Part shown: piece after piece, positions 39,537-45,814 of the stretch
How the letters are laid out: every line of letters starts with the position of its first letter
How positions within the stretch are numbered: the stretch's first letter is position 1
Assembly (NCBI RefSeq): GCF_001708305.1
Contig: NZ_CP016953.1
Coordinates: 261,001-325,000, forward strand
DNA from: Streptococcus himalayensis
GTDB taxonomy: Bacteria; Bacillota; Bacilli; Lactobacillales; Streptococcaceae
DNA length: 64,000 nt
Direction: 5' to 3'
The notes under the pieces: model-generated
What the model saw: only the letters and a program-made list of their open reading frames with translations
Databases searched by the model: none
Told to the model about the DNA's origin: nothing
Made by a program: the position numbers and the translations under genes

Positions 39537-39872
39537 TTATGCTCCTCTCTTCATTTTTATCTTTTTCTTGATTTCTCGCTTACCATCTAAAGTTTTTCGA
39601 TATTTCAAAAACTTTCTAAAGCCCTCAATATCTGTACTTGTACCATAGACATATTCTGTCCACCCGGGCAAATTATCCATCAAACGACGAATATCTCCGA
39701 CCTGACGCTCCGTCAAATCAAACTTCAAAGCCAAATTCTTATCACACATAGCCTCAAGCTCAAAACTCTTGTTAAATTTGCCATTCTCCAAGGCTCTGGT
39801 CACAATTTTAGTCACAGTTTCAACAATCAAACGTTTCACCTCTGCTTGCCAGTCCACACTGAATAATTCCAT
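39537..39872 (-). CDS. phage early DNA-binding-like protein
   Basis: 111 residues, MELFSVDWQAEVKRLIVETV, with a helix-turn-helix-like centre (LALKFDLTERQVGDIRRLMDNLPGW) and a very basic end (KREIKKKIKMKRGA). Layout resembles the DUF771 proteins of streptococcal phages, though I am unsure. It starts behind AAAGGAG and runs opposite to the sRNA unit at 39892. Confidence 0.62.
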   Translation of the reverse strand: MELFSVDWQAEVKRLIVETVTKIVTRALENGKFNKSFELEAMCDKNLALKFDLTERQVGDIRRLMDNLPGWTEYVYGTSTDIEGFRKFLKYRKTLDGKREIKKKIKMKRGA

Positions 39873-39891: not shown

Positions 39892-39900
39892 TGATATAAT
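39892..39900 (+). promoter_or_regulatory. extended -10 promoter of the repeat-containing sRNA
   Basis: TGATATAAT is a perfect TG-n-TATAAT element. No clear -35 is seen, as is common with extended -10 promoters. Transcription should start near 39907. Confidence 0.7.
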
Positions 39901-39906
39901 TTAAGT

Positions 39907-39995
39907 AGTTAATTTTTGTAAGTCCCCTCCTACTGATTGCCGTCAGTGTTTTAGAACTATGTTGTTTCAAGCGTTCTAAAACTGGGGGCTTTTTT
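39907..39995 (+). ncRNA. sRNA with a solitary type II-A CRISPR-repeat-like unit
   Basis: A self-contained unit: promoter at 39892, about 89 nt, terminator TTTTTT. Nested structure: outer stem AGTCCCC (39921) with GGGGGCT (39984), hairpin ACTGA/TCAGT (39932-39947), and a repeat-like segment 39948-39982. That segment starts GTTTTAGAACTATG, continues TTGTTTCAA and ends GTTCTAAAAC. By my hand alignment it matches about 29 of 36 bases of the S. mutans/S. thermophilus CRISPR3-type repeat as I recall it, and about 27 of the S. pyogenes one. Its ends form a perfect 10-base stem. No second repeat and no cas gene is present. Confidence 0.72.
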
Positions 39996-40003
39996 GCTAT
40001 AAT
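39995..40003 (+). promoter_or_regulatory. extended -10 promoter of the 78-residue gene
   Basis: TGCTATAAT begins in the last T of the sRNA terminator. It would start a transcript about 25 bases before the GAAAGGAGG ribosome binding site of the gene at 40034. Confidence 0.65.
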
Positions 40004-40033
40004 TGGCTTATCCTATTGAAAGGAGGATAAGCT

Positions 40034-40270
40034 ATGATTACTTGTCATATTGTGATTGAGGGGCATACAGAACCTGTTCCAATGATATTGCCTACTATTC
40101 CCTCTATAGGCTCTGTCATTGCAAGGTCATCAGACCCTAAATCAGAACATTATTTAGTGAAATGTGTTGAATATGTTCACGGTCATGATACTGTTAATTT
40201 ACATATTCAAGCATTTCCGAACCAGATCAGTGCTGTCAACGCTATTGATGGTTTCAGGAATAATAGATAA
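40034..40270 (+). CDS. 78-residue phage protein of unknown function, moron-like
   Basis: MITCHIVIEGHTEPVPMILP, then PSIGSVIARSSDPKSEHYLV and a His-rich VEYVHGHDTVNLHI. It runs against the surrounding early operon and has its own promoter and a strong GGAGG ribosome binding site, like an independently expressed accessory gene. It overlaps the oppositely oriented gene at 40199 by 72 bases. No family recognised. Confidence 0.7.
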   Translation: MITCHIVIEGHTEPVPMILPTIPSIGSVIARSSDPKSEHYLVKCVEYVHGHDTVNLHIQAFPNQISAVNAIDGFRNNR

Positions 40271-40470: not shown

Positions 40471-40599
40471 CTACTCCCTCTCTAACTTCTCCACCACCGC
40501 CAAGCGAACAAAAGCCGACATGGACAAGCCCAAACGCTTGCATCGCTCTTCTAGTCGCTCTTTTAGGGGCGGTGACAACTGAACGTGTATAAACTTCAT
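40471..40599 (-). CDS. ribbon-helix-helix protein, copy 1
   Basis: 42 residues: MKFIHVQLSPPLKERLEERC, then KRLGLSMSAFVRLAVVEKLERE. A beta strand followed by two helices with the GLSMSAFVRLAV turn is the ribbon-helix-helix fold of small DNA-binding repressors. A second copy of the same length at 41383 is nearly identical in DNA. It stands before the 86-residue gene and may autoregulate that pair. Confidence 0.78.
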   Translation of the reverse strand: MKFIHVQLSPPLKERLEERCKRLGLSMSAFVRLAVVEKLERE

Positions 40600-41382: not shown

Positions 41383-41511
41383 CTACTCCCTCTCTAACTT
41401 CTCCACCACCGCCAAGCGAACAAAAGCCGACATGGACAAGCCCAAACGCTTGCATCGCTCTTCTAGTCGCTCTTTTAGAGGCGGTGACAACTGAACGTGT
41501 ATAAACTTCAT
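41383..41511 (-). CDS. ribbon-helix-helix protein, copy 2
   Basis: 42 residues, as far as I can read the same protein as 40471-40599; one base differs in the coding part I compared (GGGGC versus GAGGC in the complement) and is silent. Near identity over about 130 bases with unrelated flanks points to a recent duplication or a conserved cassette. Confidence 0.78.
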   Translation of the reverse strand: MKFIHVQLSPPLKERLEERCKRLGLSMSAFVRLAVVEKLERE

Positions 41512-44509: not shown

Positions 44510-44674
44510 AAATACATTATAACACACAAAAAATTCCCTGTAAAGAATTAAATAAAAAACTCCCCACACTCGCCATCGCCAAACGTTGAGTGTGAGGAGA
44601 AAAAATGATAGTAAATAGGCATTAAAAAGCCCCTTTTACTATACCCATTTTATCAAGAAATGAGGAAAAATGCA

Positions 44675-45814
44675 ATGTGGATAGAAGAACATAGGAGCGG
44701 AAAATTTAACTTTTTTGAACGATATAAAGATCCCTATACAGGAAAATGGAAAAAAGTATCCGTGCTCATGGAGAAAAAGACACCGCAAGCACAGAATCAA
44801 GCCGCAAGATTGCTACAAGAAAAAATCAATCAAAAATTACAAATAAAACCTAATCACTCAGATATAAACTTTGAAACTCTATACAAAGAATTTAAGCTTG
44901 GATGGTCTCAAAGTGTCAAGAACTCCACCATTTATTCAACAAACAATATTGAAAAAGTCATTCTTGACAACATACCAGGGGATTATCTAGTCAAAAACAT
45001 AGACAGACGGTTTTTACAAAGTATAATCAATAACCTACTGAACGAAGGTCGCTCACATAACTTTACTAGCAAAGTCAAATCTAAGTTAAAACAAATCATG
45101 GCATTTGCCGTGAGGATGAATTATATTGATAGAAATGAGATGCTATCTGTTGAAATGCCTAAAAAAGTATTGACAACAGAAATGATTCAAAAATCAAAAA
45201 GGAAATATCTGGATCAAACAGAGTTTGAGTTGTTAATGAAACATTTAGAAGAAGAGAGTATCCGTGATTATCGGGTTGCAAAGTATGCCAAAATTGCCCA
45301 AGTATTATTTATGACAGGCATGCGTTATGGAGAATTAGCTGCCTTAAATCCAGAAACCGATATTGACTTTGAACATCAAACCATATACATCCAACACAAT
45401 TATAATTTCAGAGATAAAGAACGAACGACACCTAAAACAGTCAAATCAGATAGAGTGATTGCTGCACCTACCAAGGTATTAAACATCATTCAACAGCAAC
45501 TAATCACCAATATAGAAAATGGCTTTGATACAGATTTCATCTTTATCAATACGAAAGGGCAACCAATCAACCCCGAGCGAGTCATCGGAGCCTTAAAAAG
45601 ACATGGTCAAAAAATAGGAATTGAAAAAAATATCACAACGCATATATTCAGGCATTCTCACATCTCTCTATTAGCAGAATTAGGAATTCCGCTCCCTGCT
45701 ATCATGGATAGAGTAGGGCATTCAGATTCCAAAACAACATTAGAGATATACTCTCACGTCACTAAAAAAATGGGAGATGAACTCATACAAAAACTCAATG
45801 ATTTAAAGTTTTAA
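44675..45814 (+). CDS. int: phage tyrosine integrase
   Basis: 379 residues from the ATG at 44675, chosen over one five codons upstream because GAGG lies nine bases before it. An AP2-like arm-binding domain (residues 1-50), a core-binding domain (60-160) and the catalytic domain follow. Catalytic residues: Arg217 (TGMRYGELAALN), His323 and Arg326 (HIFRHSH), His349 (VGHSD), Tyr359 (EIYSHV). It inserts the phage at the 3' end of the SRP RNA region just downstream. Confidence 0.95.
   Translation: MWIEEHRSGKFNFFERYKDPYTGKWKKVSVLMEKKTPQAQNQAARLLQEKINQKLQIKPNHSDINFETLYKEFKLGWSQSVKNSTIYSTNNIEKVILDNIPGDYLVKNIDRRFLQSIINNLLNEGRSHNFTSKVKSKLKQIMAFAVRMNYIDRNEMLSVEMPKKVLTTEMIQKSKRKYLDQTEFELLMKHLEEESIRDYRVAKYAKIAQVLFMTGMRYGELAALNPETDIDFEHQTIYIQHNYNFRDKERTTPKTVKSDRVIAAPTKVLNIIQQQLITNIENGFDTDFIFINTKGQPINPERVIGALKRHGQKIGIEKNITTHIFRHSHISLLAELGIPLPAIMDRVGHSDSKTTLEIYSHVTKKMGDELIQKLNDLKF

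Follow-up and report, generated by a model that had tools for sequence, protein, structure and literature searches.

A solitary type II-A CRISPR-repeat-like unit inside a prophage terminator of Streptococcus himalayensis, a candidate RNA anti-CRISPR

The stretch of Streptococcus himalayensis DNA analysed here (the window, 64,000 nucleotides) carries a prophage, and in one of the gaps between its genes lies a single 35-nucleotide (nt) unit, at 39948-39982, that resembles one repeat of a type II-A CRISPR (clustered regularly interspaced short palindromic repeats) array. The unit occupies a precise site inside a conserved phage promoter-terminator cassette, and a natural II-A spacer matches the same prophage. 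We consider the unit best read as a candidate type II-A RNA anti-CRISPR of unusual build, which is possibly decaying.

The unit resembles type II-A repeats over its whole length

Aligned with the CR3/S. mutans-type repeat, the unit is alike in 30 of 36 columns with one gap (83%), the best among the seven repeats compared. The initial annotation had seen this likeness, which is real, and had put it at 29 of 36, a count that we correct by one. The letters of the reference repeat also stand in II-A arrays matched by BLAST. As a whole repeat it scores 22 in the window, whereas dinucleotide shuffling of the window, done 200 times and scored on both strands, gave no more than 16. The assignment to type II-A repeats holds. 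In Rfam, the family CRISPR-DR22 matches exactly 39948-39982 at 32.3 bits, short of the cut-off of 50 (E 1e-4 for 501 nt), in the same relative orientation as in true arrays. A BLAST search with 176 bases of the cassette gave matches in 47 of 284 Streptococcus genomes, and among the matches listed, the loci that matched the unit only are II-A arrays (L012, L015, L018, L027, L030, L031 and L034). On these alignments, the unit very probably derives from a II-A repeat.

Alternatively, the unit could be an unrelated RNA hairpin that extends the loop of a terminator, for example in an RNA antisense to the early operon, and its CRISPR likeness would then be convergent. The stem is perfect, unlike that of true repeats, the predicted RNA is antisense to the leader of gene 39537-39872, and plain cassettes that lack the unit are common. 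However, the likeness runs through the whole repeat length, as the score above shows, and the Rfam family that matches the unit is a CRISPR repeat. The likeness also reaches into the 15-nt loop, whose resemblance to the middle of the repeat is equalled by only 20 of 20,000 random prophage 15-mers. Thus, as the initial annotation had argued, the stem alone fails to explain the match, and we regard convergence as improbable.

The unit lies within a pre-existing terminator

The home of the unit is prophage Javan254 of S. himalayensis HTS2 (151 of 151 bases identical), which spans approximately 7259-45814 of the window by arithmetic on the 151-base match. The cassette fills the gap between a minus-strand gene (39537-39872) and a plus-strand gene (40034-40270), in the order extended -10, short leader, a stem around two hairpins, and T run, with the unit forming the second hairpin. 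The extended -10, the unit, the G-rich stem and the T run are all in the sequence where the initial annotation had placed them:

39892-39900, plus strand: P1, an extended -10 promoter element, TGATATAAT, with no clear -35 (sequence; same element in related prophages)
39907-39995, plus strand: predicted short RNA, some 85-90 nt long, running from P1 as far as the T run (fold)
39920-39927, plus strand: 5' arm of the terminator stem, AAGTCCCC (in the fold whether or not the unit is included)
39932-39947, plus strand: ancestral inner hairpin, ACTGATTGCCGTCAGT, the masked guide of the initial annotation (similar hairpin in the unit-free loci L020, L230, L231 and L232)
39948-39982, plus strand: solitary type II-A CRISPR-repeat-like unit, GTTTTAGAACTATGTTGTTTCAAGCGTTCTAAAAC, 35 nt with a 10-bp perfect stem (repeat alignment, CRISPR-DR22, BLAST to arrays)
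39984-39995, plus strand: 3' arm of the terminator stem, GGGGGC (39984-39989), and T run (39990-39995) (sequence; fold)
39995-40003, plus strand: P2, an extended -10 element, TGCTATAAT, belonging to the next gene (sequence; common to Javan246 and others)

The RNA is predicted to fold into an outer stem with two inner hairpins at -27.5 kcal/mol, and the 119-nt stretch around it has a folding z of -3.8. The position of the unit contradicts one further idea, that of a repeat-like attachment site for phage integration into CRISPR arrays: the unit sits some 5.8 kb into the element and not at the prophage end, where the integrase (44660-45814) sits next to the signal recognition particle (SRP) RNA, and we give this idea next to no weight. 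The repeat arms were also considered as repressor operators and rejected, as the window holds 10 half-site matches versus 6.1 expected, with no pattern seen.

Cassettes of this kind, in which an extended -10 is followed by a short terminator within about 25 bases, antisense and just before a gene start, are widespread in phages (window 39892-39995; L003, L004, L006, L007, L020, L089, L135, L228, L230 and L231), and the hairpin loops TTGCCG and TTCCCG recur in them. A plain cassette, with the same kind of promoter and the short terminator at once after it, was present in 13 of 22 inspected loci, none of which had the unit; the other nine matched the second promoter only. Ten further IMG/VR loci have the plain cassette, and a strict cassette pattern matched three of 284 Streptococcus genomes. 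Empty sites are seen in L020 and in L230, L231 and L232, the last three being IMG/VR contigs. The inner hairpin recurs in all four, as CTGGATTGCCGTCCAG in L020, as CTGATTGCCGTCAG with a two-part stem in L230 and L231, and as a simple hairpin in L232, and the junction reads CAGT-TGGGTGCTTTTTT in L231 versus CAGT-unit-TGGGGGCTTTTTT in the window. When the window cassette is folded without the unit, the outer stem and inner hairpin are retained, at -17.1 versus -27.5 kcal/mol; deleting the unit in silico restores the terminator. These comparisons indicate the clean insertion of a segment roughly as long as one repeat into a pre-existing terminator. What this analysis adds to the initial annotation is that the promoter and G-rich terminator form a widespread phage cassette and that the unit is placed precisely inside the terminator; the empty-site relatives provide a natural negative control.

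The empty sites also bear on the bases before the unit, which the initial annotation took for a guide masked by folding. An ACTGAT/GTCAGT hairpin is indeed predicted there, but since the unit-free relatives have it too, the supposed masked guide is the older terminator hairpin, and masking as a designed feature is rejected. Among 445 ordinary spacers, 24% fold as well as the 30 nt preceding the unit do.

The same junction raises the possibility of a phage-borne one-repeat guide, in which Cas9 loaded with the unit RNA would attack the uninserted cassette of rival phages and spare the carrier. The unit stands exactly between a 20-nt sequence shared with the terminators of other phages and an NGG, and without it a TGG would come right after the 20 nt. 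The corresponding bases are 19/20 plus GGG in L232 and 18/20 plus GGG in L230, and L020, which was not chosen by pattern, has AGG after the hairpin. However, in the ten IMG/VR loci found with a search pattern that required NGG, whose hosts are not identified, this PAM is there by construction. No other streptococcal phage record matched a 32-nt query, L020 differs within the seed, L219 has no NGG at that place, and the guide itself is folded. We consider such a guide very improbable.

A natural II-A array targets the prophage

Among 481 spacers drawn from the arrays examined, a single one aligns with the prophage from end to end:

44576-44606, minus strand: protospacer with TGGCG on the side of the protospacer-adjacent motif (PAM), 31/31 identical to one of the II-A array spacers of G283

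G283 is a Streptococcus genome whose locus has cas9, cas1, csn2 and 64 repeats. Because a complete II-A genome holds a 31/31 spacer with an NGGNG-type PAM, II-A pressure on this prophage lineage is real, and it is a pressure that could have selected the unit. The other 27 spacer matches listed are 13-24 nt long, eight of them within host flanks; one, from G264, is alike in 22 of 24 bases to the P1 region. G283 itself has a plain cassette (L007).

A possible RNA decoy for Cas9

A II-A repeat copy in the cassette terminator would give a short prophage RNA that displays one repeat and no usable guide. The unit could then pair with trans-activating CRISPR RNA (tracrRNA) in the register of a CRISPR RNA (crRNA). 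Since the terminator hairpin takes the place of the guide, Cas9 or RNase III complexes formed in this way would lack a functional one. If the RNA is transcribed, binds tracrRNA in the cell and occupies Cas9, the phage may benefit, and the unit would act as a naturally occurring RNA decoy for type II-A Cas9. It would also show one way in which such decoys can arise, with a repeat dropped into a ready-made promoter-terminator cassette. Judged from the sequence, a Cas9-directed decoy of the RNA anti-CRISPR (Racr) kind, acting against streptococcal Cas9 systems, is a plausible but tentative reading that falls somewhat short of probable.

Predicted duplexes between the unit and 35 tracrRNAs range from -14.6 to -25.5 kcal/mol (median -20.5), with p values against 1000 shuffles from 0 to 0.106 (median 0.004), and for most of these tracrRNAs the unit pairs better than its shuffled versions. 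The pairing register is that of the crRNA in the two of the 35 tracrRNAs for which the register was printed.

Evidence against a decoy, and decay of the insertion

Several results weigh against a working decoy. First, the CR3-type repeat forms tracrRNA duplexes of -33.2 to -50.8 kcal/mol, so that the unit pairs about half as strongly; pairing with the L196 tracrRNA has a p of 0.106, and one of the weakest duplexes is that with the orphan tracrRNA of the host itself (-15.5 kcal/mol, p 0.03). In these models, weak tracrRNA pairing is what speaks most against an efficient decoy, and it leaves room for decay. Second, the stem is stronger than in true repeats, as the initial annotation had pointed out, with a self-fold of -9.8 kcal/mol versus -5.2 to -7.4 for three repeats. 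Third, the SRUFinder rules for solitary repeat units, in the portions of Camara-Wilpert et al. 2023 (PMC10651486) cited here, ask for at least 90% identity to a known repeat, an intergenic position and no second repeat close by. The unit is below 90% identity to the seven repeats compared here (the SRUFinder library holds 17,823) and for this reason is not filed as a solitary repeat unit, although it may still function like one. Fourth, the cassette was said to have its own promoter and terminator, and promoter-like and terminator-like elements are present, but a consensus scan found neither: it gave no sigma-70 promoter at P1, where there is no -35, and no terminator at the cassette, its rules admitting loops of 3-8 only. 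Transcription of the unit is therefore inferred. Finally, no known anti-CRISPR gene was recognised near the unit with PHROGs, Pfam and NCBIfam, an anti-CRISPR library not being among those searched.

The host genome adds to these points. It yielded no CRISPR array, no cas1 (a search that gave a match in 9 of 14 control genomes) and no cas9 with TIGR01865, which scored above its cut-off in 12 of 31 genomes and in none of the 14 named controls; a Cas9_PI search was uninformative, as no control matched. With up to three mismatches, the left 22 nt of the unit match the host genome only at the unit itself. The initial annotation had described no second repeat and no cas gene, and the host genome likewise gave no second repeat, cas1 or cas9.

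Nor did the conserved copies in phage genomes that had been envisaged appear. IMG/VR searches found no second copy, and one repeat query gave L038 alone, a Javan263-like unit. The exact stem occurs in 284 Streptococcus genomes only in the unit's own, phage records gave Javan254 alone (for the four other rows, all weak, position or length shows that they are not repeats), and the left half matched one marine contig among 84,980 species genomes.

The host does carry an orphan tracrRNA, at L205:9394-9487 (G000:C1:79394-79487), with 85.1 bits against an Rfam cut-off of 70; no cas9 remnant with E below 0.2 was found in the 19 kb beside it. A tracrRNA above the cut-off is present in 93 of the 284 Streptococcus genomes, including G028 (L233), in which the Cas9 match is weak and partial.

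These results could also reflect a decaying or neutral insertion, that is, a II-A repeat captured by the phage lineage, perhaps functional at first and by now drifting in a CRISPR-Cas-free host. The single copy, the weakened tracrRNA pairing, and a host with an orphan tracrRNA but neither cas1 nor cas9 found would all fit, and the perfect stem could persist because the unit leaves the terminator undisturbed. However, at two places where the unit departs from the CR3-type repeat its stem is improved (A-U replaces the mismatch opposite A6 and also the G-U at position 9), as if the hairpin were being kept up, though another change removes the eleventh pair, and the promoter-like and terminator-like elements are intact. 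We consider decay unlikely, though clearly less so than convergence or a one-repeat guide, and retain the candidate decoy as the preferred reading.

Other repeats in Streptococcus genomes and phages

A promoter-plus-repeat pattern occurs at 14 places in 12 of the 284 genomes, and the unit in the window is the only single repeat among them that is not beside a tracrRNA: L040 has two repeats, L051 and L052 lie beside tracrRNA, and the rest are arrays. A Streptococcus plasmid has four match places. When 50,697 phage records were searched with four repeat queries, a single further solitary II-A repeat of streptococcal type came up, in Javan263, the other rows being arrays, mini-arrays or weak rows. 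Among open-access PubMed Central (PMC) papers, none was found that joins Racr, Cas9, anti-CRISPR and type II-A, nor any that has three of four satellite-phage terms.

Satellite phage Javan624 of S. uberis has a II-A-like repeat array without cas genes (L036:3075-3491), whose spacers fold into hairpins. Five segments fold with shuffle p of 0 to 0.02 (one merges two spacers, and one is the trailing flank); when these are cut to 30 nt, equally good folds occur in 0.7% to 43% of the 445 ordinary spacers. For part of one spacer, 29 of the 40 rows listed are matches to phage antirepressor genes. A CR1-type mini-array stands between terminase genes of S. thermophilus phages (L037:679-840, Streptococcus phage 128), and the full CR1-type repeat occurs in 19 streptococcal records.

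Neighbouring genes

The gene downstream of the cassette is not shown to be part of the unit:

40034-40270, plus strand: 78-aa protein of unknown function, phrog_9136 (E 3.1e-42)

The Javan254 annotation, as far as it was examined, lacks it. A search for it gave 43 proteins, and relatives occur in Listeria phages, for example A118 gp37. Its leader (40004-40036) can form a CTTATCC/GGATAAG hairpin around the ribosome-binding site, and this motif recurs ahead of other phage genes. Two 42-aa frames, at 40471-40599 and 41383-41511, have identical weak RelB/Arc-like antitoxin matches, as if duplicated.

Comparison with known systems

The unit is like streptococcal II-A repeats (e.g. those of G283 and L208) in sequence, length and tracrRNA pairing register, but it has no array, leader or cas genes and pairs more weakly. 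Similar in build are the degenerate repeats beside tracrRNA (L051 in G283, L052 in G160), which are also single altered repeats with a promoter-like element ahead; L051 and the unit are alike in 30 of 36 columns. These, however, lie in a CRISPR locus next to the tracrRNA, whereas the unit is in a prophage. The Javan263 repeat (L035:4001-4036; IMG/VR L038:797-832), from the early region of an S. infantarius prophage, is likewise a solitary II-A-type repeat of a streptococcal prophage and another II-A candidate. Unlike the unit, it is 94% identical to the CR3-type repeat and sits immediately ahead of a ribosome-binding site rather than within a terminator.

AcrIIA24-32, as presented in the portions of PMC8934645 cited here, are protein anti-CRISPRs of Streptococcus mobile elements. 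They share with the proposed role of the unit the same Cas9 family and the same genus as target, but they are proteins and the unit an RNA, and none was recognised near it in searches made without an anti-CRISPR library.

In its anatomy the unit is like solitary repeat units, some of which are Racr. According to the same portions of Camara-Wilpert et al. 2023 (PMC10651486), Racr candidates exist for all CRISPR types except VI, and activity was tested in I-C, I-E, I-F and V-A, not in type II. A host with the matching subtype is usual and anti-CRISPR genes nearby are enriched, though neither is required; the matching subtype was not found in the host here. The unit differs from these systems in its identity of less than 90% to the repeats compared, its place in a terminator, its perfect stem, and a host in which CRISPR-Cas was not found. 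P1, for its part, is an extended -10 conserved in related prophages without a -35, and no annotated feature lies beneath the unit. Like Racr and other solitary repeat units, it is one intergenic repeat mimic in a phage, with a promoter-like element ahead of it and no cas genes.
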